A model generated the notes under the pieces. That model was not told the origin of the DNA, made no database searches, and saw nothing but the letters and a program-made list of their open reading frames with translations. Below, piece by piece: positions 1,880-54,913 of a DNA stretch of 64,000 nt. Source of the DNA: an uncultured Eubacteriales bacterium (GTDB lineage: Bacteria; Bacillota; Clostridia; Lachnospirales; Lachnospiraceae); NCBI GenBank assembly GCA_949283695.1, contig CASDTX010000052.1, forward strand, positions 1 to 64,000, given 5' to 3'. A program made the position numbers and the translations under genes. Numbering within the stretch: position 1 is the stretch's first letter; each line of letters opens with the position of its first letter.

Positions 1880-3331
1880 CTATTCTCTGTGCATGGAGAA
1901 GGACTCCTCGTCGTAATTGCTCAGGTTCGCGTAGATGCCTCTGTCATCCGCCTGTTTAATCAGAGCGTCACGAGATTTCTTGGCCAACATCTGATCTTTA
2001 AAGGAGCTTGGTCCTCCCACACATCCGCCGTCGCAGGCCATCCCTTCAATGAAGTCTTCCGGAAGACGTCCGACCTTCATGAGCAGAAGCGCTTTCTTAC
2101 ATTCAGCCGCCCCGTTCGCTCTGCAGACCTTGATGTCGATCTCATTTCCAGACTCTTTCAGGCTCTGCTGCACAGCTGCCGTCACACCGCCGGAATTGCC
2201 GAACCGTTTGCCGTATACGGAGGATTCCTGATATGTATCTTCTACCGGTTCCAGAGCCACTTCTTTCGCGCGCATCATGGCGCGGATCTCACTGTAAGTC
2301 AGAACATAGTCTGCATTGCCTTCGATCTTCTGATCCACAACTTCAGACTTTTTCGCCATGCAGGGTCCAATAAATACGGTGACTGCTTCCGGGTCCTTGG
2401 CTTTGATCATACGGGAGACTGCACACATCGGAGAAACTGTAGTAGACACAGCGTCATTTAACTCTGGGAAGTGTTTGCGCACCATGTTTACGAATCCGGG
2501 ACAGCAGGAAGTAACTTTCTTCTTGCCCTCCTCGTGGGCCTCTCTCCACTCTTCTGCTTCATATTTCGCTGTCAGGTCTCCGCCCAGGCCGACTTCGACG
2601 AAATCTGTGAAGCCAAGTTCGAGCATTGCCTTTTTCCAGCTGGCCATGGTAATATCCTCGCCGAACTGTCCTTCTGTGGCCGGCGCCAGCATTGCGTACA
2701 CATGCTTTCCGGACTTTATGGCTTTGATCACCTGGACGATCCATGTCTTGGAGCCGATTGCTCCGAACGGACAGCTGTGGATACATTTTCCGCAGCGGAT
2801 ACACTTTTCATCATCGATGACAGAAATGCCATATTCATCATAGGAGATGGCGTCTACCGGACAGCTGAACTTGCAGGGACGCTTCAGATGAGCGATGGCA
2901 TTGTATGGACAGGCATCCGCACATTTCCCACACTCTTTACACTTGGAAGCGTCGATGTGGGTGCGGTGTCTTCCCGGTTCGATCGCCCCGAATTTACAGG
3001 CATTGATACATGCCTTTCCGATACAGTTCTGACAGTTCTCTGTAACCGTATAACTGGAAATCGGACAGTCCTCACAGGCAGAACTGATCACCTGAATAAT
3101 ATTTCCGTCGTCTGTAAGCCCGGGCGCCTTTCCCTCGGCAAGGCGGACACGCTGTCTGATAATCTCCCTTTCTTTATAGATACAGCAGCGGAACTGGGCT
3201 GTCGGTCCTGGGATCAGTTTCATCGGGATCTCATCCTTGCGCTCCTCCAGTTCTCCTGCGAACGCCAGCCGCGCGACTGCCTCCAGAACTTCGTGTTTGA
3301 TTTTGATTACGTTTGCATCTGCGTACCTCAA
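1880..3331 (-). CDS. [FeFe]-hydrogenase-like protein (paralogue 2, CDGGC variant)
   Basis: 483 residues, same architecture as its downstream neighbour: a short N-terminal helical part, Cys-rich ferredoxin motifs (including C131/C134/C137/C141 and C177/C180/C183/C187), then the H-cluster motifs TSCCPGF (C276, C277), PCMAKK (C324) and EGMACDGGC (C433, C437). All cluster cysteines are kept, but the near-invariant proline of CPGGC is Asp434. That change close to the active site could alter activity or point to a sensory role; this is inference. Start: TTG at 3331 with an excellent AAGGAGG 8 nt upstream; no ATG is better placed. The divergence between the two paralogues suggests an old duplication with division of labour rather than recent copying. 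Confidence 0.85.
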   Translation of the reverse strand: MRYADANVIKIKHEVLEAVARLAFAGELEERKDEIPMKLIPGPTAQFRCCIYKEREIIRQRVRLAEGKAPGLTDDGNIIQVISSACEDCPISSYTVTENCQNCIGKACINACKFGAIEPGRHRTHIDASKCKECGKCADACPYNAIAHLKRPCKFSCPVDAISYDEYGISVIDDEKCIRCGKCIHSCPFGAIGSKTWIVQVIKAIKSGKHVYAMLAPATEGQFGEDITMASWKKAMLELGFTDFVEVGLGGDLTAKYEAEEWREAHEEGKKKVTSCCPGFVNMVRKHFPELNDAVSTTVSPMCAVSRMIKAKDPEAVTVFIGPCMAKKSEVVDQKIEGNADYVLTYSEIRAMMRAKEVALEPVEDTYQESSVYGKRFGNSGGVTAAVQQSLKESGNEIDIKVCRANGAAECKKALLLMKVGRLPEDFIEGMACDGGCVGGPSSFKDQMLAKKSRDALIKQADDRGIYANLSNYDEESFSMHRE

Positions 3332-3539: not shown

Positions 3540-5972
3540 TCACAGCGAGGCGAAAAGCTCCTGCGCATAGTGTACGGACTGCATCGCGTCTTTCCCATAG
3601 AAATCTGCGCCGATCATATCTGCATATTCCTGGTTCAGCACAGCGCCTCCGACCATCACCCGGCACCAGGGGGCTTTCTCTCTCAGCTGCCGGATCGTCT
3701 CTTCCATACTGACGACAGTAGTTGTCATCAGTGCGCTCAGTCCTACCAGCTTCACATTCTTTTCCAGTACGATGTCCACGATCCGCTCCGGCGGCACGTC
3801 TTTCCCAAGGTCGATCACGTCGAAACTGTAGTTCTCGAGAAGGACTTTGACAATATTCTTGCCGATGTCATGGATATCCCCCTTGACGGTAGCGATTACT
3901 ACGGTGCCCAGCTTTTTCTGCACTTCTCCGCTTCTGTCCATCTTCTCTTTCAGCACGCTGAAGGCACTCTTGGCAGCTTCCGCACTCATCAGAAGCTGGG
4001 GGAGAAACACCGTTCCCTTCTCAAACCCGTCACCTACGTGATTCAGTGCGGGGATCAGTTCCTCATTAATAAGATCCAGCGGGGAGCGTTCCGCGGAGAG
4101 TTCCGCCGTGATCCGGTGCGCGTCTTCCCGAAGTCCCTTTTCGATTGCCGCTGAAAGGCTCAGGGCGGCAGATGCGGTTCCCGTTCCGGAAGAACCTGCC
4201 GGTCCTGTGCCGGCGCTGCCGGCCGGGGCGGCGCCGTAGCGGTCAATGTATTTCTCGCAGTTTGCATCCAGATTCATCAGCGCATGATATGCATGCCATG
4301 CTTTCATCATGTCTTCGGAGGAAGGATTAATAATGCCTGCACTGAGTCCGCACATCATGGCCAGGGTGTAAAAAGCGGAATTGATAATCGGGCGGCTGGG
4401 AAGGCCAAAGGAAATATTGGACACGCCCAGCACGGTGTTGACTCCAAGTTCGTCACGAAGGCGCCTCAGGGTCTCCAGCGTAACCTTCGCTCCCTCTGGT
4501 TCTGAACTGATCGTCATAGCCAGGGCATCGATTACAATATCTTTCTTCTGAATCCCATACTTCGCCGCCTCTTCGATGATCTTCCCGGCAATGCGCACCC
4601 TGCCGTCCGCATCCGCGGGAATCCCGGATTCATCCAAGGTCAGGCCGATCACCACGCCGCCGTACTTCTGAATCAGCGGGAAGACCAGATCCATGGACTC
4701 CTGTTTGCCGCTGACAGAGTTCACCATTGCTTTGCCGTTGTAGATCCGCAGTGCGTTCTCCATGGCTTTCGGGTCCACGGTATCGATCTGCAGAGGCAGA
4801 TTGACCACACTCTGGAGTTCCTGTACGACTTCCTCCATCAGAGCAGGCTCATCAATATCCGGAAGTCCCACATTCACGTCCAGGATATGTGCTCCGTGAT
4901 CCTGCTGTGTGATGCCTTCCCGCAGGATATAATCCAGGTCATGTTCTTTGAGGGCCTGTTTAAACCGCTTCTTTCCCGTGGGATTAATCCGTTCCCCGAT
5001 GATCTTTGATCCGCACCTGCTGTCTTGCGCGTTTCCAAGAAAAACGCATTGTCCGTAAGAAGAGACAACCGTATCTTTCTTCTCAGAGATGGGGAGGATG
5101 TCCGTACCCCGGCAGAGTTCGGTCATTGCTTTGATGTGATCCGGCGTCGTGCCGCAGCAGCCTCCGATCACACAGGCGCCCATTTCCACGATTTCCTTCA
5201 TGTATCCGGCAAAGGCCTCCGGCTCTACATCATAATACGTCTGTCCGTCTCTCTGCTTGGGCAGACCGGCATTGGGCTTTACGATAACCGGGAGGGAAGA
5301 ATAAGTGAGCAATTCTTCCAGCACAGGAATCATCTGTTCCGGACCCATGCCGCAGTTGATCCCAAGCGCGTCCACCCGCAGGCCTTCCAGCAGTGCCACA
5401 ACAGAAGGAACGTCTGCCCCTGTGAGGAGCTTATGCCGTTCATCGAAGATTGCTGTGACGAAGACCGGAAGTGAGGTGTTCTCCTTGGCTGCAAGTACAG
5501 CCGCTTTCATTTCATAAGTATCACTCATGGTCTCGATATGGATCAGATCTGCACCCGCCTGTTCTCCGATGATCATCACTTCTTTGAAGGCCTGATAGGC
5601 TGTTTCAAATTCCAGATCCCCCATTGGTTTCAAAAGCTTCCCAGTGGGACCGATATCCAGTGCGGTATAGATCTTCCGGCCCTGTCCTGCCTCCTCTGCC
5701 GCAGCTTTCACATGTCCTGCCGCGGCCCGGATAATCTCCTCCAGGGACCAGGTATCGTCATGAAATTTCAAAGCGTTTGCACCGAAGGTGTTGGTCAGCA
5801 CAATCTGGCTGCCGGCCTCGATATACCGCCTGTGTATCCCGCGGATGATTTCCGGATGGGTCAGATTCCAGGTCTCCGGCAGTTCACCGGGAGCAAGGCC
5901 TTTCTCCTGCAGCAGGGTTCCCATCCCGCCGTCAAAAAATAAGAGTTCTTTTCCAAGTCGTTCTCTGAGCAT
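3540..5972 (-). CDS. metH: Cobalamin-dependent methionine synthase, without reactivation domain
   Basis: 810 residues; transfers the methyl group of 5-methyl-THF through cobalamin to homocysteine. Residues 1-290 form the homocysteine barrel with zinc ligands C207, C272 and C273 (GINCG and GGCCGTT). Residues about 324-590 are the pterin-binding barrel (IIGERINPTG). A low-complexity Ala/Gly/Ser/Thr linker comes next, then the cap and B12 domains, with the DIHDIG cobalamin motif at 699-704 (H701 as lower ligand). The C-terminal SAM-dependent reactivation domain of long MetH proteins is missing; the next gene upstream supplies it. Start: ATG 5972 follows AAAGGAC. Longer in-frame starts lack a ribosome site and would run into the neighbouring gene. 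Confidence 0.95.
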   Translation of the reverse strand: MLRERLGKELLFFDGGMGTLLQEKGLAPGELPETWNLTHPEIIRGIHRRYIEAGSQIVLTNTFGANALKFHDDTWSLEEIIRAAAGHVKAAAEEAGQGRKIYTALDIGPTGKLLKPMGDLEFETAYQAFKEVMIIGEQAGADLIHIETMSDTYEMKAAVLAAKENTSLPVFVTAIFDERHKLLTGADVPSVVALLEGLRVDALGINCGMGPEQMIPVLEELLTYSSLPVIVKPNAGLPKQRDGQTYYDVEPEAFAGYMKEIVEMGACVIGGCCGTTPDHIKAMTELCRGTDILPISEKKDTVVSSYGQCVFLGNAQDSRCGSKIIGERINPTGKKRFKQALKEHDLDYILREGITQQDHGAHILDVNVGLPDIDEPALMEEVVQELQSVVNLPLQIDTVDPKAMENALRIYNGKAMVNSVSGKQESMDLVFPLIQKYGGVVIGLTLDESGIPADADGRVRIAGKIIEEAAKYGIQKKDIVIDALAMTISSEPEGAKVTLETLRRLRDELGVNTVLGVSNISFGLPSRPIINSAFYTLAMMCGLSAGIINPSSEDMMKAWHAYHALMNLDANCEKYIDRYGAAPAGSAGTGPAGSSGTGTASAALSLSAAIEKGLREDAHRITAELSAERSPLDLINEELIPALNHVGDGFEKGTVFLPQLLMSAEAAKSAFSVLKEKMDRSGEVQKKLGTVVIATVKGDIHDIGKNIVKVLLENYSFDVIDLGKDVPPERIVDIVLEKNVKLVGLSALMTTTVVSMEETIRQLREKAPWCRVMVGGAVLNQEYADMIGADFYGKDAMQSVHYAQELFASL

Positions 5973-6009
5973 TCCTCTTGTCCTTTCTGCTGTCATTCGC
6001 TGCCAGTAT

Positions 6010-6663
6010 TTATATTCTGCGGTACTCGCAGTCGGTTTTCTCACACATTTCACAGCCGGCCGCAGGGCACCTTTCTTTCCCTGTGCCGGCTCCGATCAGT
6101 GCTGTCACGGATTTCGTGGGCGTCATCATAAAGCCGTCTGTCATGGTAAGGCCGATCGTCTTCGCGCAGTCCAGCATCCGCATAATCGGTGCCTGGTAGG
6201 AGATATCAAAATCCCCGTAGCCGGGACTGAAGCGCGGGCGCAGGTACAGGCCGGACGATTCCAGTTCCTGCCCGATCTTCTTCTGCTGCGCATCACAGTA
6301 TTCTTCCAGAACAGCTGCGGCGCAGGCCTGCAGCACCACGGCCTTGGCCATATCTGTGACCGACCATCTTCGGATCAGCCGGTCAGTCTCCTCGCCCAGC
6401 GTAGCACCGAAGAGTACTACGCTGCCGCACCCTTTCAGGTTCCGGCTCAGACTGGTGCTCTTGATTTCCATCGTGCCGATTCTGATTCTGCCGTCCGCTG
6501 TCTGTTCCAGATCAAAAATGCGGCAGACCGACTTCGGCGCCGCTGATCTGTCAAGTTCTGCAAACGCATCGTTTATCAGCGCCAAAGTCCTGTCATCTGC
6601 CGCATTTCTTCCATAGCCCAGATATCGGACAGCTTCTCTCGTTCGTCTGTCCATCTTTTTCAC
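6010..6663 (-). CDS. Methionine synthase reactivation-domain protein
   Basis: 217 residues. It resembles the free-standing vitamin-B12-dependent methionine synthase activation domain of Clostridia, which binds SAM to re-methylate oxidised cobalamin on MetH. Family features seen are the N-terminal YLGYGR segment, the LFGATLG stretch near the middle, the RPRFSPGYGDFDIS block with SAM-contacting residues, and a Cys-rich tail (CPAAGCEMCEKTDCEYR). It sits between metF and the truncated metH, 37 nt from metH, so the three genes look like one methyl-transfer operon. Start is uncertain: GTG at 6663, directly after the metF stop, or ATG at 6654. Confidence 0.85.
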   Translation of the reverse strand: MKKMDRRTREAVRYLGYGRNAADDRTLALINDAFAELDRSAAPKSVCRIFDLEQTADGRIRIGTMEIKSTSLSRNLKGCGSVVLFGATLGEETDRLIRRWSVTDMAKAVVLQACAAAVLEEYCDAQQKKIGQELESSGLYLRPRFSPGYGDFDISYQAPIMRMLDCAKTIGLTMTDGFMMTPTKSVTALIGAGTGKERCPAAGCEMCEKTDCEYRRI

Positions 6664-7533
6664 CTATGCCTTTATAATCTCTGACAGGTTATTCATGATT
6701 GCTGCCGCCACATCCGGTTTATTCATAGTATAGATATGGATATTCTTTACCCCGTTGGCCAGAAGGTCAATAATCTGATCCGTCGCATAGGCAATGCCTG
6801 CCTGCTTCATGGCAGCCGGCGAACTCCCGAACCTGTCAAGTATCGCAAGAAATCTTCTCGGGAAAACAGTTCCTGAGAGTTCCTGACTTCTCTTCATCTG
6901 TGTGGCACTCGTGATCGGCATAATGCCTGGTAGTACCGGCACCGTGATTCCGGCTTCCCGGATCCGGTAAAGGAAATTATAGTGGATATCATTGTCAAAA
7001 AACATCTGGGTAGTCAGGAAATCCACTCCGCTGTCCACCTTTTGCTTCAGGTAGCGTATATCGTCCGCCTTGTGCTCGTTTTCCACATGTCCTTCCGGAT
7101 AACATGCGGCTCCAATACAGAAATCCCCGTGACTGCGGATCTCTTCCACCAGCTCATAGGCATATCGAAATCGTTCTGCGTCCGGGAACTTCATTCCCGC
7201 GGGGATATCTCCCCGCAGAGCGAGAATATTCTCGATCCCAAGTTCCTGAAGGCTGCGGATTACCCCCCGCACCTCCTCCTTTGTGGAGGATGCGCATGTC
7301 AGATGTGCCAGGCTCAGCACATGCAGATCATCCTTGATATGAGAGGCGATCTTCGCTGTATTCCGGCTGGTTCCCCCGCCCGCTCCATAGGTCACACTGA
7401 TAAACGCGGGGTTCAGTTTAGCCATCTCGTCCGTGGCGGCGGCTACCTTATCATATCCTTCGTCCGTCTTTGGCGGAAATACTTCAAAAGAAATATGTAT
7501 CCTGTCTTCTCTCAGTCTGTCACTTATCTTCAT
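6664..7533 (-). CDS. metF: 5,10-methylenetetrahydrofolate reductase
   Basis: 289 residues, the normal length for bacterial MetF. This FAD-containing TIM-barrel enzyme reduces methylene-THF to methyl-THF, the substrate of MetH encoded two genes downstream. Recognisable blocks are ISFEVFPPK near the N-terminus, FISVTYGAGG, the LALRGD segment, GAACYPEGH and TTQMFFDN. ATG 7533 has AGGAG about 9 nt upstream. Its stop touches the start of the reactivation-domain gene, which supports co-transcription metF-activator-metH. No SAM riboswitch or T-box was recognised in the 130 nt before it. Confidence 0.95.
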   Translation of the reverse strand: MKISDRLREDRIHISFEVFPPKTDEGYDKVAAATDEMAKLNPAFISVTYGAGGGTSRNTAKIASHIKDDLHVLSLAHLTCASSTKEEVRGVIRSLQELGIENILALRGDIPAGMKFPDAERFRYAYELVEEIRSHGDFCIGAACYPEGHVENEHKADDIRYLKQKVDSGVDFLTTQMFFDNDIHYNFLYRIREAGITVPVLPGIMPITSATQMKRSQELSGTVFPRRFLAILDRFGSSPAAMKQAGIAYATDQIIDLLANGVKNIHIYTMNKPDVAAAIMNNLSEIIKA

Positions 7534-7624
7534 CCGGTCAAAAGTCTCCTGTCCTGTATATTACCATCCCTGCGGTCCTTTTCTCCTGCGTCGGTCAGGC
7601 GCGGAGACCGCTCGGAACAGCAGT

Positions 7625-7651
7625 GCCGCCTTCTTTTGATTCGAAGGCGGC
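7625..7651 (-). terminator. Hairpin downstream of glgA
   Basis: GCCGCCTTC (7625-7633) and GAAGGCGGC (7643-7651) form a perfect 9-bp stem with a 9-nt loop, 15 nt past the glgA stop. A T-tract is absent on the minus strand, so this is only a candidate terminator separating glgA from metF. Confidence 0.5.
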
Positions 7652-7665
7652 AGCCGCAGTGTTTC

Positions 7666-9114
7666 TTACTCGCCGATCAGGCCTTTGTACAGTTCTTCGT
7701 ACTGTCTTGCAGAGTTCTTCCATGAGAAGTCCTGACTCATGGCACGCTCTACGATCTTGTTCCAGTCTCTCTTTCTGTCATAGTAGATTCTCTCTGCATA
7801 GCGAATGGTATTCAGCATCTCATGTGCGTTATAGTTGCAGAAACTGAATCCGGTTCCAGTCTTTTCGAATTCATTATACGGCTCTACGGTATCCTTCAGA
7901 CCGCCTGTCTCACGTACGATCGGCAGGGTGCCGTAACGAAGGCTCATGAGCTGGCTTAAACCGCAGGGCTCGAAGAGTGACGGCATGAGGAAGGAATCAC
8001 AGGACGCATAGATCTTATGGGAAAGTTCGTCAGAATAATAAATGTTGGCGGATACCTTTCCGGAATATTTCCATGCAAAGTGGCGGAACATATTCTCATA
8101 CTTCACATCTCCTGTGCCAAGCACTACGATCTGAACCGCATCCTGGCAGAGCTCATCCATCACATAATCGATCAGGTCAAACCCTTTCTGATCTGTCAGA
8201 CGGGAAACCATACCGATCAGCATCACCTTGGGATCTACATCCAGCCCCAGTTCTTCCTGAAGAGCGGTCTTGTTCATCGGCTTATTCTTACGGAAATTCT
8301 CAATCGTAAAGTTCTTCGCGATCCGGTTGTCTGTTGCCGGGTTCCAGTCGTCGTAGTCCAGTCCGTTCACGATACCGCACAGGTCTCCTGCTCTTGCGGA
8401 CATCAGGCCGTCCAGCGCCTCGCCGTAGAACGGAGTCTTGATCTCCTCTGCGTAGCTGTTGCTGACAGTCGTTACCTTATCTGCATAGACGATACCGCCT
8501 TTTAACAGGTTGGCATCCTTGTATGCTTCCATCTTGTCCGGCACAAAATAGTACTCCGGAAGTCCGGTAATACCTCGCACGGTCTTTGTGTCCCACACGC
8601 CCTGGAACTTCAGGTTATGTATGGTCATCACTGTTTTAATCCCGCGGTAGTACTCTCCCAGGTATCTGAAATTGTCCAGGTAAACCGGAATCAATCCTGT
8701 CTGCCAGTCATGGCAGTGGATGAGGTCCGGGCGGAATCCGATCACAGGAAGAATACTCAGAGCTGCCTTTGAGAAAAACGCGAACTTCTCAATATTCCAT
8801 TTCGGGTCCCCGTCATAGGGTGCAAAGCCGCTGAAATAATGCTCGTTGTCGATAAAATAGAAAGTGATGTCATTGAGGACAGTTTTTAAAACTCCCACAT
8901 ACTGGTCCTGTCCCGCAATGTCCATATAAAAATGCGTTACATACTCCAGCTTATCCTTCCATTCCTGCTTCATACAAGTGTACTTGGGAAGGACGACGCG
9001 CACGTCGTATTTCTCTTTGTCAAATTCTTTGGGGAGTGATCCCGCAACATCTGCAAGGCCGCCTGTCTTGATGAATGGCACACATTCTGAAGAAGCAAAT
9101 AAAATGTTTTTCAT
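7666..9114 (-). CDS. glgA: Glycogen synthase (ADP-glucose type)
   Basis: 482 residues, a standard GT5 glycogen synthase that extends alpha-1,4-glucan from ADP-glucose. The N-terminal MKNILFASSECVPF and the KTGGLADVAGSLP block carry the ADP-glucose-binding Lys of the KxGGL motif; the C-terminal part has EPCGLSQL and TGGLKDTV. Start: ATG 9114 has GGAGG upstream. An in-frame ATG at 9168 is rejected because it lies upstream of the expected transcription start of the TTGCAT-N16-TATAAT promoter at 9170-9197. The gene stands alone between spo0A and metF, without other glg genes in the window; glycogen storage before sporulation would suit its place next to spo0A, which is inference. Confidence 0.95.
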   Translation of the reverse strand: MKNILFASSECVPFIKTGGLADVAGSLPKEFDKEKYDVRVVLPKYTCMKQEWKDKLEYVTHFYMDIAGQDQYVGVLKTVLNDITFYFIDNEHYFSGFAPYDGDPKWNIEKFAFFSKAALSILPVIGFRPDLIHCHDWQTGLIPVYLDNFRYLGEYYRGIKTVMTIHNLKFQGVWDTKTVRGITGLPEYYFVPDKMEAYKDANLLKGGIVYADKVTTVSNSYAEEIKTPFYGEALDGLMSARAGDLCGIVNGLDYDDWNPATDNRIAKNFTIENFRKNKPMNKTALQEELGLDVDPKVMLIGMVSRLTDQKGFDLIDYVMDELCQDAVQIVVLGTGDVKYENMFRHFAWKYSGKVSANIYYSDELSHKIYASCDSFLMPSLFEPCGLSQLMSLRYGTLPIVRETGGLKDTVEPYNEFEKTGTGFSFCNYNAHEMLNTIRYAERIYYDRKRDWNKIVERAMSQDFSWKNSARQYEELYKGLIGE

Positions 9115-9169
9115 ATCTTTCGATCCTCCATTTTCTGCATTAATCGCCGAAAGGCTTTCATTAGACATT

Positions 9170-9197
9170 ATTATACCTTATTTCCTGCATAATGCAA
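9170..9197 (-). promoter_or_regulatory. Sigma-A promoter of glgA
   Basis: On the minus strand, -35 TTGCAT (9192-9197) and a perfect -10 TATAAT (9170-9175) are separated by 16 nt. The predicted start point near 9163 decides the glgA start codon in favour of ATG 9114. Confidence 0.75.
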
Positions 9198-9267
9198 AGG
9201 ATTTTATCACTTCACCATATTGATTTATTTTGTCCGCGTCCTGCTTTTTCTTACAATGGCAGTCACT

Positions 9268-10062
9268 CTATGAGGAACTGCCGTGTCTGTACTCCAGCTG
9301 TATGGTATCTGCGATCAGTGCAATAAATTCGGAATTGGTAGGTTTGCCCTTCCCTGTGCTTACCGTATATCCGAAAAGTTCATCCAGTGTATCCAGTTTG
9401 CCCCTGCTCCAGGCGACTTCGATTGCGTGCCGTATGGCCCTCTCCACACGGCTGGAAGTTGTCTGATACTTCTTTGCCACAGTAGGGTAGAGAATCTTGG
9501 TAATCGCGTTGAGCACGTCCATATCGTTCACGGCCATCATAATCGCGTCCCGCAGATAGTGATAGCCTTTGATGTGCGCGGGTATGCCGATCTCATGAAG
9601 CATATTTGTCACACGGTTTTCCAGATTGTCGCCTCTTACCTTATCCCCACTCTGGTCTTCCTCCCTCTTTTCGTGATTACGGAACATTTTTCTTACGGAT
9701 TTTATCCGTTCCAGCAGAAGTTCGTTGTTGAACGGTTTCATGATGTAGTAATTTGCCCCTTTGTTAAAGGCATCTTCAGTAATCCTTTCCTGTCCCACCG
9801 CTGTGATAACAATAAAATATGGACGCTTATTGACAAGTTCCCCCTGATTCACCTGTTCCATTACTGTCAATCCATCCATTTTCGGCATGATCAGATCGAG
9901 AAGAACAACGTCCGGCTGTCTGTCTTTGATGATCTGACACATCTCTTCACCATTTTTTGCTTTTCCAACCAGATCGAGATCCTTGTCTGTACTGATAATA
10001 TCGCCCAGCACATCAAGGATCCTCTGATTATCATCAGCGATGGCAACACTCAAATGCTCCAT
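9268..10062 (-). CDS. spo0A: Sporulation master response regulator Spo0A
   Basis: 264 residues. The receiver domain (1-125) has the acidic pocket DD (10-11), phospho-acceptor D56 in VVLLDLIMP and the conserved Lys in YYIMKPF. A linker of about 25 residues leads to the Spo0A C-terminal DNA-binding domain, with the recognition-helix stretch [17 protein letters not shown]. Phosphorylated Spo0A binds TGTCGAA boxes to start sporulation. AAGGAGAG precedes ATG 10062. Its own upstream region carries a sigma-A promoter and two exact Spo0A boxes, so it is probably autoregulated. The order spoIVB-spo0A is typical of Clostridia and Bacilli. Confidence 0.97.
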
Positions 10063-10112
10063 TCTCTTCTCTCCTTTAGATTTGAGAACCAGCTCTGAAA
10101 CGCCACTTGCTT

Positions 10113-10141
10113 ATTATATCCGCGCCAATATGCAGATTCAA
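10113..10141 (-). promoter_or_regulatory. Sigma-A promoter of spo0A
   Basis: -35 TTGAAT (10136-10141) and -10 TATAAT (10113-10118) on the minus strand with an ideal 17-nt spacer, about 50 nt before the spo0A start. Confidence 0.75.
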
Positions 10142-10156
10142 GAAGATTTTGTAACA

Positions 10157-11272
10157 CTAATTCGACATGGTTTTCGACATTTCAGACGATTCGACCTGCT
10201 TCAACATATTTTCTATAAATATGCCATAGCCCATTGTCGAATCCTGCACGAACACATGTGTCACTGCTCCGATCAGTTTCCCATCCTGAATAATCGGACT
10301 TCCGCTCATGCCCTGGATGATACCGCCTGTTTTTTCCAGCAGTTCGGGGTCTGTCACTTTTATGACGAGTCCTTTGTTGATCTCGGTACTGTCCGTGTCA
10401 ACTTCTGTCACCTCAATGTCGTACTCTTTCAGCTCGTTGTCGATATAACAGCGAATTGCTGCCGGCCCGGCGTGAATCTCCTCCTTTTCTGCCGTCTCGA
10501 TGGGGATCTGGTCTTCAAACAGCTCGTCAATACGGTCAATGCTGCCGTAGATTCCGGCCTCTGTATTCTGGTCGATGGTTCCCAGAATATTGTAGCGGTT
10601 GTAGACAATGATCCCTTCCATGCTGCCGGGCAGACCGTCTGTTCCGCGGATAATATTCTGGATACTGGTTCGGTATACAGTTCCGTCCGAAATCGTCATC
10701 AGCACATTGGTATCTGTATCGTGAATCCCATGTCCCAGTGCCCCGAACCTGCTTTTGTCTGTCAGAAATGTGATGGTTCCCAGTCCCTGGACATTATCCC
10801 GTACCCAGATCCCCAGGCGGTAATCGTCCGGCGAGCATTCCACAGGCTGAATGCGGATATCGAGCACCTCGCCGTCACGCCGCACCGTGAGCACCACATC
10901 ATCACCGTCAATTGCTTCCACCGCGTCCAGCAGATCTGATTTCCCGGATATTTCCTGATGGTTCACCGCCGTGATATAATCCCCGGTCCGCACAAGATGC
11001 GCCGCCGGTTCATACTCATGCCCGTCAACCCCCTTCATCTGTTCCGTGCCAAGTACCATAACACCGTCTGTTTCCATGTAGATTCCAACCGGCATTCCTC
11101 CCAGGAGCACCGTTCCGCTGTCCGATGACTCGGTGGATGCCTCTGTCTGGCGGATATCCGGATCCCCGGATTCTGCATGGATGCATCTCTGTACCAAAGC
11201 GCCGGCCAGAATGAGCCCGCCGAGGATGCCTGTCAGGATCATGCCCGCCATATATCTTCGCTCTCTTCTCAT
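10157..11272 (-). CDS. spoIVB: SpoIVB serine peptidase (signals sigma-K activation)
   Basis: 371 residues. In spore formers this forespore-secreted S55 peptidase cleaves SpoIVFA to release pro-sigma-K processing. An N-terminal membrane segment follows MRRERRYMAG; a PDZ domain covers roughly residues 80-160; the protease domain has its His in GALGHGIHDT and its nucleophile Ser in GMSGSPI. Start: ATG 11272 with AAAGG 9 nt upstream is preferred; ATG 11281 has the same AAAGG directly abutting it. The gene follows the recN terminator, so it needs its own (sigma-F/G) promoter, which I could not place with confidence. Confidence 0.93.
   Translation of the reverse strand: MRRERRYMAGMILTGILGGLILAGALVQRCIHAESGDPDIRQTEASTESSDSGTVLLGGMPVGIYMETDGVMVLGTEQMKGVDGHEYEPAAHLVRTGDYITAVNHQEISGKSDLLDAVEAIDGDDVVLTVRRDGEVLDIRIQPVECSPDDYRLGIWVRDNVQGLGTITFLTDKSRFGALGHGIHDTDTNVLMTISDGTVYRTSIQNIIRGTDGLPGSMEGIIVYNRYNILGTIDQNTEAGIYGSIDRIDELFEDQIPIETAEKEEIHAGPAAIRCYIDNELKEYDIEVTEVDTDSTEINKGLVIKVTDPELLEKTGGIIQGMSGSPIIQDGKLIGAVTHVFVQDSTMGYGIFIENMLKQVESSEMSKTMSN
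10162..10180 (-). promoter_or_regulatory. Two Spo0A boxes upstream of spo0A
   Basis: Two exact TGTCGAA boxes on the minus strand (10162-10168 and 10174-10180, 12-nt period), centred about 60 nt upstream of the predicted spo0A transcription start and overlapping the last codons of spoIVB. A third near-match, GGTCGAA, lies at 10191-10197. They match the known Spo0A consensus TGNCGAA. Confidence 0.7.
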
Positions 11273-52473: not shown

Positions 52474-52700
52474 AATTTCATTTCCTCCCATCTATTCCCA
52501 CGAGCAACGAGCCAAGCGGGCACGTTTGCATCGCGGTATTTGACTGATGCAGCATGACGCTGTACAGATTCGTATACGACGTTCCGATTTTTGCCGTTTA
52601 CAGCTATTATATCTGCCATTCCGTCAGGACGTAAGGCAAAAAGACCGTCTGCTCCTTATGCAGGCAGCGTCGGTGGACAAGGGGCAATACGGCCGATGAC

Positions 52701-52820: not shown

Positions 52821-52849
52821 TTGAAATCTGCCCGGATATTCCCTATAAT
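52821..52849 (+). promoter_or_regulatory. Sigma-A promoter of the MATE operon
   Basis: -35 TTGAAA (52821-52826), 17-nt spacer, perfect -10 TATAAT (52844-52849). The predicted start point is near 52856. Confidence 0.85.
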
Positions 52850-52855
52850 ACAATC

Positions 52856-52879
52856 ATGACGTGTAGCACTCATGCGTAA
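52856..52879 (+). CDS. Possible 7-codon leader ORF before MATE gene
   Basis: ATG ACG TGT AGC ACT CAT GCG TAA encodes MTCSTHA. The ATG coincides with the predicted transcription start, so it would be translated leaderless, and the ORF covers exactly the 5' arm of the terminator hairpin. No ribosome site is present. Real translation is not shown by the sequence. Confidence 0.4.
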   Translation: MTCSTHA

Positions 52880-52914
52880 TTCCAGTTGCGTATGTGCTGC
52901 ACGTTCTTTTTTTT
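52859..52914 (+). terminator. Attenuator-like terminator in the MATE leader
   Basis: ACGTGTAGCA/TGCTGCACGT (10 bp) plus an inner CATGCGTAA/TTGCGTATG stem, 6-nt loop, then TTCTTTTTTTTG. It is a strong intrinsic terminator between the MATE promoter and the MATE start codon; no other plus-strand gene lies upstream for it to serve. Confidence 0.75.
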
Positions 52915-52931
52915 GACAGGAGGCGAATCCA

Positions 52932-54338
52932 ATGGAACATTCAAACCAATTTCTTGGAACGGAGCGCATCGGAAAACTGATGACAACATATGCCGTTCCC
53001 TGCATCATCTCACTTCTGGTCGGCGCCCTTTATAATATTGTTGATCAGATTTTTATTGCAAATGCCAGCTATCTCGGCTCTTACGGGAATGCTGCGAATA
53101 CCGTAGTATTTCCCCTAACAGTGGTGGCCCTGGCGATTGCGGTTATGATTGGAGATGGCTGCTGTGCATTTGTCAGCATCAGTCTTGGGAAAGATGAAAC
53201 AGAATCTGCCAGACGAAGCGTGGGCAATTCGATTCTTATGAGCATTGCGAGCAGTCTGATTATCACCGCACTGTATCTGCTCTTCCAGACACAGATCATC
53301 TCCATGTTCGGAGGTACAGTCAACGAAGAAACTTTCCGTTATTCACAGGAGTATTTCTTCTACATCAGTCTGGGAATTCCCTTTTATATGTTCGGACAGT
53401 CTATGAACCCGGTGATCCGTGCCGACGGAAGCCCAAGGTTCGCGATGGCTTCCACTCTGGCCGGGGCAGCCGCCAACATCATCCTGGATCCCATTTTCAT
53501 TTTTCTGTTCAAATGGGGGATGATGGGAGCCGCTGTCGCTACGGTGATCGGGCAGATCATCACGGCGGCTTTGGCTGTCTGGTATATTCTGCACATGAAA
53601 ATCATGAAGCCATGCAGGCATGATTTCCGTATTGACCTGAAAGTATGCGGCAGGACTCTGCTTCTCGGCATTACCAGTTTTCTCTCCCAGATCTCCCTGG
53701 TTGCCTCTATGGCAGCTGTCAACAACATGCTGCGTAAATATGGGGCGGCAGATGCGGTTTTCGGACAGGCACAGTATGCCCAGATTCCGATGGCAGTGGT
53801 GGGGATCGTGATGAAATTTTTCCAGATCGTTATCTCCATTGTTGTGGGTATGGCCGCCGGATGCATCCCTGTTGTAGGATTCAATATCGGAGCCGGGAAA
53901 AAAGCTCGTGTAAAAGAATTATTCACAAGACTCCTCATTGCAGAAGCACTGGTTGGAGCTGCGGGATTTCTTCTGGCAGTGTTCTGCCCCCGGCAGCTGA
54001 TCGCCGTTTTCGGTGCGGCAAATGAGAGTATATATTATACGGAATTTGCGGTCAAGGCATTTCGGACCTATCTGTGTCTGATCATTCTTGCCTGCGTCAA
54101 CAAGGCCTGCTTCATCTTCCTGCAGGCGATGGGAAAGGCGGCTGAATCCACGATACTGTCTATGATTCGTGAAGTGGTCTTCGGTGTGGGATTTGCACTT
54201 CTGCTCCCCATATTCCTGGGACTGGACGGAGTCCTCTTCTCCATGCCGGTATCCGATCTTCTGACCTTTATCGTGGCTGTAGTTCTGATCCGCCGCACTT
54301 ACAGCGAATTGAATGAGAAAGGAGCATCACCAGTATGA
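52932..54338 (+). CDS. MATE family efflux transporter
   Basis: 468 residues, 12 membrane helices in two six-helix halves. Typical stretches are VPCIISLLVGALYNIVDQIF, AGAAANIILDPIFIF and GCIPVVGFNIGAGK. Exports drugs or metabolites using an ion gradient. ATG 52932 has AGGAGG 8 nt upstream. Its leader holds a promoter, a short ORF and a terminator, pointing to conditional expression. The stop overlaps the next gene (ATGA). Confidence 0.92.
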   Translation: MEHSNQFLGTERIGKLMTTYAVPCIISLLVGALYNIVDQIFIANASYLGSYGNAANTVVFPLTVVALAIAVMIGDGCCAFVSISLGKDETESARRSVGNSILMSIASSLIITALYLLFQTQIISMFGGTVNEETFRYSQEYFFYISLGIPFYMFGQSMNPVIRADGSPRFAMASTLAGAAANIILDPIFIFLFKWGMMGAAVATVIGQIITAALAVWYILHMKIMKPCRHDFRIDLKVCGRTLLLGITSFLSQISLVASMAAVNNMLRKYGAADAVFGQAQYAQIPMAVVGIVMKFFQIVISIVVGMAAGCIPVVGFNIGAGKKARVKELFTRLLIAEALVGAAGFLLAVFCPRQLIAVFGAANESIYYTEFAVKAFRTYLCLIILACVNKACFIFLQAMGKAAESTILSMIREVVFGVGFALLLPIFLGLDGVLFSMPVSDLLTFIVAVVLIRRTYSELNEKGASPV

Positions 54339-54913
54339 AACACCGCATTATTACCATCAGCCGTGAATTCGGAAGCGGCGGACGCACGATCGGGAGAGAA
54401 ACTGCAAAGCAGTTAGGCATCCCGTGTTATGACAGCGAATTGATTCAAAAGACTGCACAAGAAAGCGGATTTGAAGAATCCTATATCATAAACGCTGACG
54501 AATCCACTTCTGGGGGCTTTATCGGCTCTGCGTTCTCTACACGGGCGTTCGGTCCTACAGCCGAAGATTATCTCTGGGAGGCGCAGCGCAAAGTGATTCT
54601 TGAACTGGCGGAGAAAGGTCCCTGCGTGATTGTGGGGCGCTGTGCAGACTCGATCCTCCGCGAGAAAGCGGACTGCCTGACCGTGTTTATTCACGCGGAT
54701 CTGAAATACCGGGCCGACCGCATCGTGAAAGTATACGGAGAACGGCAGGAATCCCCGGAACAGCGCATCAGGGAGAAAGACAAACGGCGTGCCGCATATC
54801 ACCGGTTTTACACAGATATGAAATGGGGATATGCGAAGAATTATCAGATCTGTCTGGACAGCGGAAACCTTGGAATCAATCAATGTGTAAACATATTAAA
54901 GATACTGTATTAA
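54335..54913 (+). CDS. Cytidylate kinase-like family protein
   Basis: 192 residues. P-loop-like start RIITISREFGSGGRTIGRET, middle LAEKGPCVIVGRCADSIL and AAYHRFYTDMKWG near the end match the cytidylate-kinase-like family (AAA-type nucleotide kinase fold) common in gut Clostridia, often next to transporters; the real substrate is unknown. Coupled to MATE through ATGA overlap. Confidence 0.85.
   Translation: MKHRIITISREFGSGGRTIGRETAKQLGIPCYDSELIQKTAQESGFEESYIINADESTSGGFIGSAFSTRAFGPTAEDYLWEAQRKVILELAEKGPCVIVGRCADSILREKADCLTVFIHADLKYRADRIVKVYGERQESPEQRIREKDKRRAAYHRFYTDMKWGYAKNYQICLDSGNLGINQCVNILKILY

Follow-up and report, generated by a model that had tools for sequence, protein, structure and literature searches.

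A conserved 34-nt leader element upstream of a Lachnospiraceae MATE exporter gene: a candidate for a new class of orphan riboswitch

Introduction

What controls expression of the MATE-family exporter gene at positions 52932–54338 of a 64,000-nt stretch of DNA from an uncultured, probably gut-dwelling Eubacteriales bacterium of the Lachnospiraceae (GenBank assembly GCA_949283695.1, contig CASDTX010000052.1, positions 1 to 64,000 of the forward strand; hereafter the window, the features of which described here all lie on the plus strand)? An earlier note on this DNA proposed that a promoter, an intrinsic terminator and a seven-codon leader open reading frame (ORF), MTCSTHA, together form a peptide attenuator, in which slowed or drug-bound ribosomes on the ORF open the terminator, a proposal in keeping with the leader-peptide attenuators known for resistance genes in Firmicutes. 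Our analyses support the attenuator-like layout of the leader, but not the conservation of its peptide. The feature conserved in the leaders of related exporter genes is a 34-nt RNA element, which is probably a transcriptional ON riboswitch of a class that gave no match in the Rfam scans, and which is predicted to bind a small molecule.

Results

The leader of the MATE gene

The ATG start codon of the MATE gene (at 52932) is preceded by a sigma-A-type promoter, predicted by a consensus scan at 52821–52849 with 11 of 12 consensus matches (−35 box TTGAAA, 52821–52826; 17-nt spacer; −10 box TATAAT, 52844–52849). It is the top of nine promoter-like sites in 6 kb, as scanned at a looser limit of 9/12 matches, at which shuffles give 5.8 sites expected. 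Downstream lies an intrinsic-terminator-like hairpin (52858–52905) with a tract of eight T residues (52907–52914), the predicted fold of which is strong at −30.6 kcal/mol; shuffled sequences average −19.6 ± 3.1 kcal/mol (z −3.5), and none of 200 reached its value. The terminator scan did not report this hairpin, probably because of a 2-nt bulge in its stem. Directly behind the T tract, a GGAGG ribosome site of the MATE gene can be read in the sequence (52919–52923). The gene upstream runs on the opposite strand, and the hairpin therefore belongs to the MATE leader. The promoter, the strong hairpin with its T tract, the closely adjoining ribosome site and the absence of any other plus-strand gene ending at the hairpin had all been described in the earlier note and are all present; its wider suggestion of a terminator-type attenuator in front of the exporter, with transcription starting at about 52856, is likewise supported, the −10 box being found at the same place in relatives.

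The comparison on which this rests covers 84 loci (L numbers below denote loci), namely the best 80 of at least 583 MATE relatives together with L001–L004. A relaxed pattern consisting of a conserved core plus its 5′ flank, described below, finds 110 copies in 78 of these loci, L001 and L002 included. The ORF, ATGACGTGTAGCACTCATGCGTAA, is literally present in the window at 52856–52879, at the predicted transcription start. Its ATG is, however, kept in 1 of the 110 copies, any in-frame ATG within 60 nt occurs in 15, and the 'stop' lies at distances from the start of the element that represent all three frames (52, 40 and 18 copies), i.e. neither start codon nor frame is conserved as would be expected of a leader peptide. 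In L031, the MATE of which is 89% identical, the ATG reads ATA, and the stem is kept by a two-sided change, from GCAC/GTGC to GCAT/ATGC. Judged from the alignments, the UAA 'stop' is part of an RNA core, GUAANUCC, and not a codon, and the conserved pairing is that of the RNA, not of a series of codons. Alignment of related MATE leaders, which the earlier note had proposed as a check, thus retains the stem and loses the mini-ORF, a result that tells against the ORF half of its proposal: we judge MTCSTHA fortuitous, and opening of the terminator by ribosomes upon it is left unsupported.

Sequence and structure of the conserved element

A leader string, (A/G)CGWGURGC - variable - GCGUAANUCCRG, recurs in the MATE relatives. 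In the window the corresponding element, a predicted aptamer, spans 34 nt (52856–52889, positions 1–34 of a covariance model, R1, which was built for the element and run on whole genomes). It consists of an outer stem, P0 (52858–52887), in which 52858–52860 pair with 52885–52887 (G-U, A-U and C-G in the window) and the middle pair covaries; a conserved internal loop (52861–52884), the predicted binding pocket, with GUGUA as its 5′ strand (52861–52865) and GUAAUUCCA as its 3′ strand (52876–52884); and a small hairpin, P1 (52866–52875), in which pair counts indicate pairing of 52866–52868 with 52873–52875 around what is a 4-nt loop in the window. The consensus of the internal loop, between P0 and P1, is GWGUR / GUAANUCCR.

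Two alignments were used: A1, with 79 of the 110 copies after removal of near-duplicates by hand, and A2, with 105 matches from 99 loci (L111, L112, L130, L141, L146, L155 and L156 being excluded as sources). Ten columns are invariant in A1. Seven loop positions (A2 columns 6, 8, 41, 42, 43, 46 and 47) do not vary among the 105 matches of A2, nor do the U, A, A, C and C of the GUAANUCC core; the P1 loop varies between 2 and 8 nt between its paired columns in the 110 copies. With P0 assigned to A1 columns 3–5 and 34–36 and P1 to columns 11–13 and 22–24, 93.5% of cells are paired and the covariation score is 0.373 (shuffles, 0.155 ± 0.014; slid partners, ≤0.055), the values for A2 being 94.7% overall, 99.0% for P0, and 0.511 (shuffles, 0.200 ± 0.014; slid partners, ≤0.107); because relatedness survives shuffling and the sequences of A2 were fitted to the model, which weighs against a stronger reading, these figures are supportive and are not probabilities. 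The middle P0 pair is formed in 79/79 sequences of A1 (columns 4–35: AU 41, GC 31, UA 5, GU 2), and the P0 pair 4–50 of A2 takes all of the forms AU (38), UA (30), GC (22), GU (6) and CG (1), with one sequence unpaired, among 98 distinct sequences. When mutual information is calculated with no structure supplied, the P0 pairs 4–50, 5–49 and 2–52 rank first, the P1 pair 11–39 is fifth and 9–44, a hint of an extra pair inside the loop, is seventh; ranks 4 and 6 (37–50 and 4–37) are non-pairs of the model.

Occurrence

A strict core pattern is present in 78 of the 84 loci, with two matches in 26 of them; the second match in L106, which adjoins the start codon, is spurious by eye. At least one copy lies within 450 nt upstream of the gene in 76 of the 80 MATE loci. 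Cultured bacteria with a copy include Fusibacillus kribbianus (L042) and Hominifimenecus microfluidus (L058). The record labels of the 80 loci are mostly those of assemblies from gut or rumen, of Lachnospiraceae, Oscillospiraceae, Ruminococcus and similar, with other labels for L093 (Chloroflexi), L098 (Flexilinea) and L079 (Solobacterium), all of these being unchecked assembly labels. The exporter gene itself is patchy in the genus, 36 same-genus genomes yielding a close MATE relative in one (G010; L003, 67%). In the genome from which the window comes, R1 gives one strong match (E 1.4e-7), which is the window element itself. R1 matched 47 of the 295 genomes searched in the order, 53 of 391 in the class and 11 of 398 in the phylum, counts that are lower bounds because the samples overlap in part and the large searches use stricter filters. 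Tandem copies occur, with 32 second copies, eight of which have a −10 box.

Position behind the promoter and overlap with the terminator

The −10 box is at the same place in 62 of the 76 first copies, compared with 164 of 1560 random places, and exactly 6 nt separate it from the element in 43 of the 70 copies with a box. From this spacing, transcripts are predicted to begin with the element itself, as in the window.

A strong hairpin directly followed by a T tract accompanies 108 of the 110 copies, compared with 51 of 660 random places. In the window, this hairpin shares the bases of P0, the internal loop and P1. Among 213 of 215 copies (L193 was dropped because of a wrong anchor and L156 for want of a 5′ flank), two layouts account for nearly all: in type a (156/213, including the window) the 5′ arm of the terminator begins in the 5′ strand of the element, and in type b (52/213) the terminator begins later and uses the GUAANUCC side; three of the remainder have no T tract and two are unclassified. 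As the terminator and P0/loop/P1 need the same bases in both layouts, the two folds compete. In 145 distinct type a folds, where the pairs were read off the prediction for each copy, changes in the element are accompanied by changes in its predicted terminator partner: column 7 and its partner give TA84/AT22/TG27/CG5, with seven unpaired, and column 10 and its partner AT76/GC47/TA6/GT8, with eight unpaired.

Two weak inverted pairs bracket the promoter, i.e. 52638–52648 with 52901–52911 (11 nt, 91%, 252 nt apart, with the T tract as one arm) and 52658–52669 with 52994–53005 (12 nt, 83%, 324 nt apart). An invertible promoter was considered on this basis and rejected: L031 has exact copies of both right arms and of neither left arm, and the pairs are therefore probably due to chance.

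Genes behind the element

The MATE gene of the window encodes 468 residues (Pfam MatE, E 5.8e-30; NCBIfam matE subfamily over its cut-off), the closest solved relative of which by sequence is the BH2163 protein (5c6o). It is followed by a cytidylate-kinase-like gene (54335–54913; Pfam Cytidylate_kin2, E 7.4e-50) that overlaps the MATE stop by 4 bases and is likely in the same operon; the pair occurs in 18 of the 80 MATE loci, the window included.

For 105 element rows, the target was taken to be the gene on the same strand, no more than 700 nt away, that best matched a set of query proteins; L141 and the first copy of L145 are one and the same place, which thus enters the rows twice. The set of queries included none aimed at thiamin genes and no PRK07324 transaminase, and with it 101 of the 105 rows were assigned to a gene and four were not. 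Some of the assigned genes, with starts hundreds of bases from the element, are perhaps not its targets. MATE genes account for 71 rows (52 close to that of the window, 17 of a distinct MATE subfamily and two in between), and CarD-like genes for 11 (Pfam CarD_TRCF_RID in both of those scanned). Smaller groups are small membrane-type proteins (five rows, with no Pfam name), copper-amine-oxidase N-domain proteins (four, by Pfam for the one scanned), ABC exporters (two, both by Pfam) and MFS proteins (two, one by Pfam). Singletons are UvrA (by eye), a nitroreductase, a polysaccharide deacetylase, an M20 peptidase, an XRE-type protein (by eye) and an unnamed protein. For two of the small membrane-type proteins DUF2798 was considered as an identity, which Pfam did not confirm.

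In several loci (L050, L054, L064, L073, L080, L086, L088 and others) a protein of about 79 residues is encoded between two element copies upstream of the MATE gene; that in L064 (MKRVKAACICQTLHF...YNTSPVGDYLD) has no Pfam or NCBIfam name, and the gene is likely a second target of the element. L247 has an element before each of two genes about 5 kb apart, one CarD-like and one MATE, and a protein that looks cytidylate-kinase-like follows the MATE gene; the region of about 7 kb (4508–11099) holds, besides these two genes and the element of the MATE gene, ABC-type genes and a weak element match overlapped by a MarR-like gene, the MarR and ABC labels being given by eye. In L186, a CarD-like gene is preceded by an element from which an azaaromatic (yjdF) riboswitch (2638–2736, minus strand) is at most about 1.2 kb away, which may be chance.

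Comparison with known RNA families

No match to Rfam 15 at the gathering cut-off was obtained for the window element and 39 other element-bearing loci; a 40th scanned locus, L048, lacks the element by pattern. A permissive search, made with the window leader only, gave sbrA at 14.6 bits, against a cut-off of 45. The Rfam search works, in that it detects guanidine-I in 7 of 12 loci of sugE, a gene for a guanidine exporter. Of the sugE leaders that gave no Rfam match, L225 and L226 look by eye like two hairpins with a terminator and are possibly guanidine-IV. Rfam 15 may lack the guanidine-IV class, and absence from Rfam is thus no proof of novelty. The element resembles the preQ1-I riboswitch in size, the aptamer of the latter being a leader RNA of about 34 nt, but preQ1-I is an H-type pseudoknot associated with queuosine genes, and no Rfam match was seen at the element.

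The element resembles the HMP-PP and guanidine-IV switches in mechanism, and is unlike them in anatomy and main genes. The HMP-PP riboswitch (thiS motif; PMC6478431) is built of two major stems, possibly with a pseudoknot, precedes thiamin genes, and has its aptamer embedded in a terminator that is broken by a competing fold, so acting as an ON switch. Our element shares with it an extended hairpin with a U run that is unusually conserved inside, and a competing fold, the ON direction being shown there and predicted here; it differs in having one outer stem, a small hairpin and an internal loop, and in standing before MATE, CarD-like and other genes. As for the thiS consensus, Rfam 15 gave no match at the element but may not include that motif. 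Guanidine-IV (GGAM-1 / mepA) comprises two hairpins with a kissing loop/pseudoknot in about 90 nt and lies most often before sugE (PMC7736828, PMC11611296), and is reported as a transcriptional ON switch acting on a terminator (PMC11611296); Gd4v is a gut-rich orphan candidate with two hairpins and a pseudoknot, over half of the examples of which precede a transaminase gene (PMC9788692). RNAs of these two groups were tested at about 81–105 nt (PMC7736828, PMC9788692). With guanidine-IV the element shares MATE genes among its targets and, by prediction, transcriptional ON control at a terminator, and with Gd4v it shares MATE targets, frequent occurrence in gut bacteria and the status of an orphan candidate. 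It differs from both in being a 34-nt single hairpin with a loop of 2–8 nt, about 6 nt behind the −10 box, where two pseudoknot-joined hairpins would be expected.

No description of the element was found in a limited literature search, which covered parts of ten papers (PMC7736828, PMC9788692, PMC11611296, PMC6478431, PMC11109978, PMC8632094, PMC2864571, PMC10043782, PMC7266159 and PMC11477304); published motif alignments, including a 2017 collection of 224 motifs, lie outside this comparison.

Discussion

Two properties expected of a riboswitch are found in this leader, i.e. a conserved, structured and covarying RNA in the 5′ leader, and an overlap of that RNA with the expression platform, in the form of competing pairing with a hairpin at which termination is predicted. 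A new orphan riboswitch class is the best reading of these results, and a likely one, with protein-mediated antitermination as its main rival. In the scheme that we propose for the riboswitch, transcription would by default end early at the leader hairpin. A small molecule would bind the internal loop as the RNA leaves RNA polymerase and would stabilise P0/P1, which in type a leaders, such as that of the window, would hold the 5′ arm of the terminator unpaired, and in type b leaders would hold the GUAANUCC segment out of the terminator. Read-through would then allow expression of the exporter and, likely, of the kinase-like gene that overlaps it. The ligand may be a toxic compound or metabolite that the exporter removes; an RNA that senses a toxic compound would be expected to stand before several unrelated exporter families, as this element does. 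The scheme is that shown for HMP-PP switches (PMC6478431) and reported for guanidine-IV (PMC11611296); for our element the ON direction, the termination and the ligand are inferred. With rather less assurance than for the riboswitch itself, we favour a fuller proposal, namely that the class is new and among those with the smallest aptamers (about 34 nt, at the RNA 5′ end), has two interchangeable terminator layouts and is often in tandem, and that its signal is a toxic metabolite of gut bacteria still to be discovered, in response to which exporters of the MATE, ABC and MFS families are turned on along with CarD-like regulators.

Several observations weigh against a riboswitch, beside the limit on the covariation figures given above. 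The ligand, its binding and the termination are all predicted, and the element is very small. Its P0 stem has just three pairs in the window, one of them G-U, and across A1 the third P0 pair (3–36) is unformed in 14 of 79 sequences and the third P1 pair (13–22) in 17 of 79. RNAalifold on A1 gave P1 only, such that P0 rests on pair counts and mutual information, and of the minimum-energy folds predicted for the nascent window RNA in the ligand-free state, none shows P0/P1. The MATE relatives L003 (67%) and L004 (43%) have no copy, and L044, L048, L060 and L107, among the 80 MATE loci, lack the element by pattern; merely 225 and 114 nt of upstream sequence are available for L044 and L107, respectively, and the core of L048 is altered by eye. 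The second R1 match in the genome of the window is weak (E 0.5; G000:C19:13894-13925, locus L112), and keeps the outer stem without an intact GUAANUCC core or a clear target gene; it is perhaps a decayed copy. The CarD-like and UvrA genes do not obviously fit a story of export only. Finally, in L079 a sugE-like fragment (2–283) lies about 0.2 kb upstream of the element (494–530), the sole such case among the 84 MATE loci, which possibly hints at a guanidine-related ligand or may be chance.

The alternative that survives best, although we consider it unlikely, is that the element is the target of an RNA-binding protein, which would keep it folded in opposition to the terminator, in the way that proteins of the BglG/LicT type act on their RAT hairpins. 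RAT is a short imperfect hairpin with an asymmetric loop that overlaps a terminator arm, a layout the same in outline as that of the element. The genome of the window encodes all three of the antiterminator families for which we searched (CAT_RBD, ANTAR and GlpP-type), and ANTAR proteins occur in 31 of 38 element-bearing genomes, which were picked by hand from the order, class and phylum matches to R1. None of the three, however, is present in all 38: CAT_RBD, which RAT-type control needs, is found in nine, that of the window among them, and GlpP-type proteins in 10 over the cut-off (15 at E 0.001), whereas ANTAR is about as common in genomes without a listed match (29/38) as in those with the element. 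ANTAR targets are, moreover, two hairpins with fixed loops, whereas the element is one hairpin with a P1 loop of variable length, and the genes controlled through RAT are other than those found here. The distribution of the known antiterminator families does not follow that of the element; a protein family not yet known may be the partner.

Membership of, or variation upon, the guanidine-IV and Gd4v riboswitches is improbable. Both are reported before some MATE genes and overlapping a terminator, Gd4v being gut-rich (PMC7736828, PMC9788692), and L079 provides the sugE-like fragment just mentioned. The reported anatomy of two hairpins and a pseudoknot in about 81–105 nt, however, differs from that of the element, sugE was absent within 1400 nt downstream of the 105 rows (tblastn with nine sugE proteins, which cross-matched their own loci as a control), and R1 gave 0 matches in the 12 sugE loci. 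Less probable again is a plain intrinsic terminator or constitutive attenuator without sensing; this would account for the terminator-like hairpin that accompanies nearly every copy, but neither the seven invariant loop bases nor a second, competing and covarying stem would be expected of it. The least probable explanation is leader-peptide attenuation, for although MTCSTHA begins where transcription is predicted to begin and takes up much of the 5′ arm of the hairpin, its start codon and frame are not kept, its UAA falls in a core identical in 105 matches, and a leaderless seven-codon ORF would need a ribosome on the RNA before the hairpin folds, such that, on the alignments, it is refuted as a conserved mechanism.

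What was supposed to be a peptide attenuator thus becomes a likely RNA-sensing one. The element is tiny, is present in many gut-type bacteria, has a proposed ON mechanism that is easily testable, and ties several exporter families to CarD-like regulators. Orphan riboswitches have earlier revealed unknown metabolites, guanidine being the standard case; likewise, the ligand of this element, if found, would reveal the export substrate of the MATE pumps and give a sensor for it.

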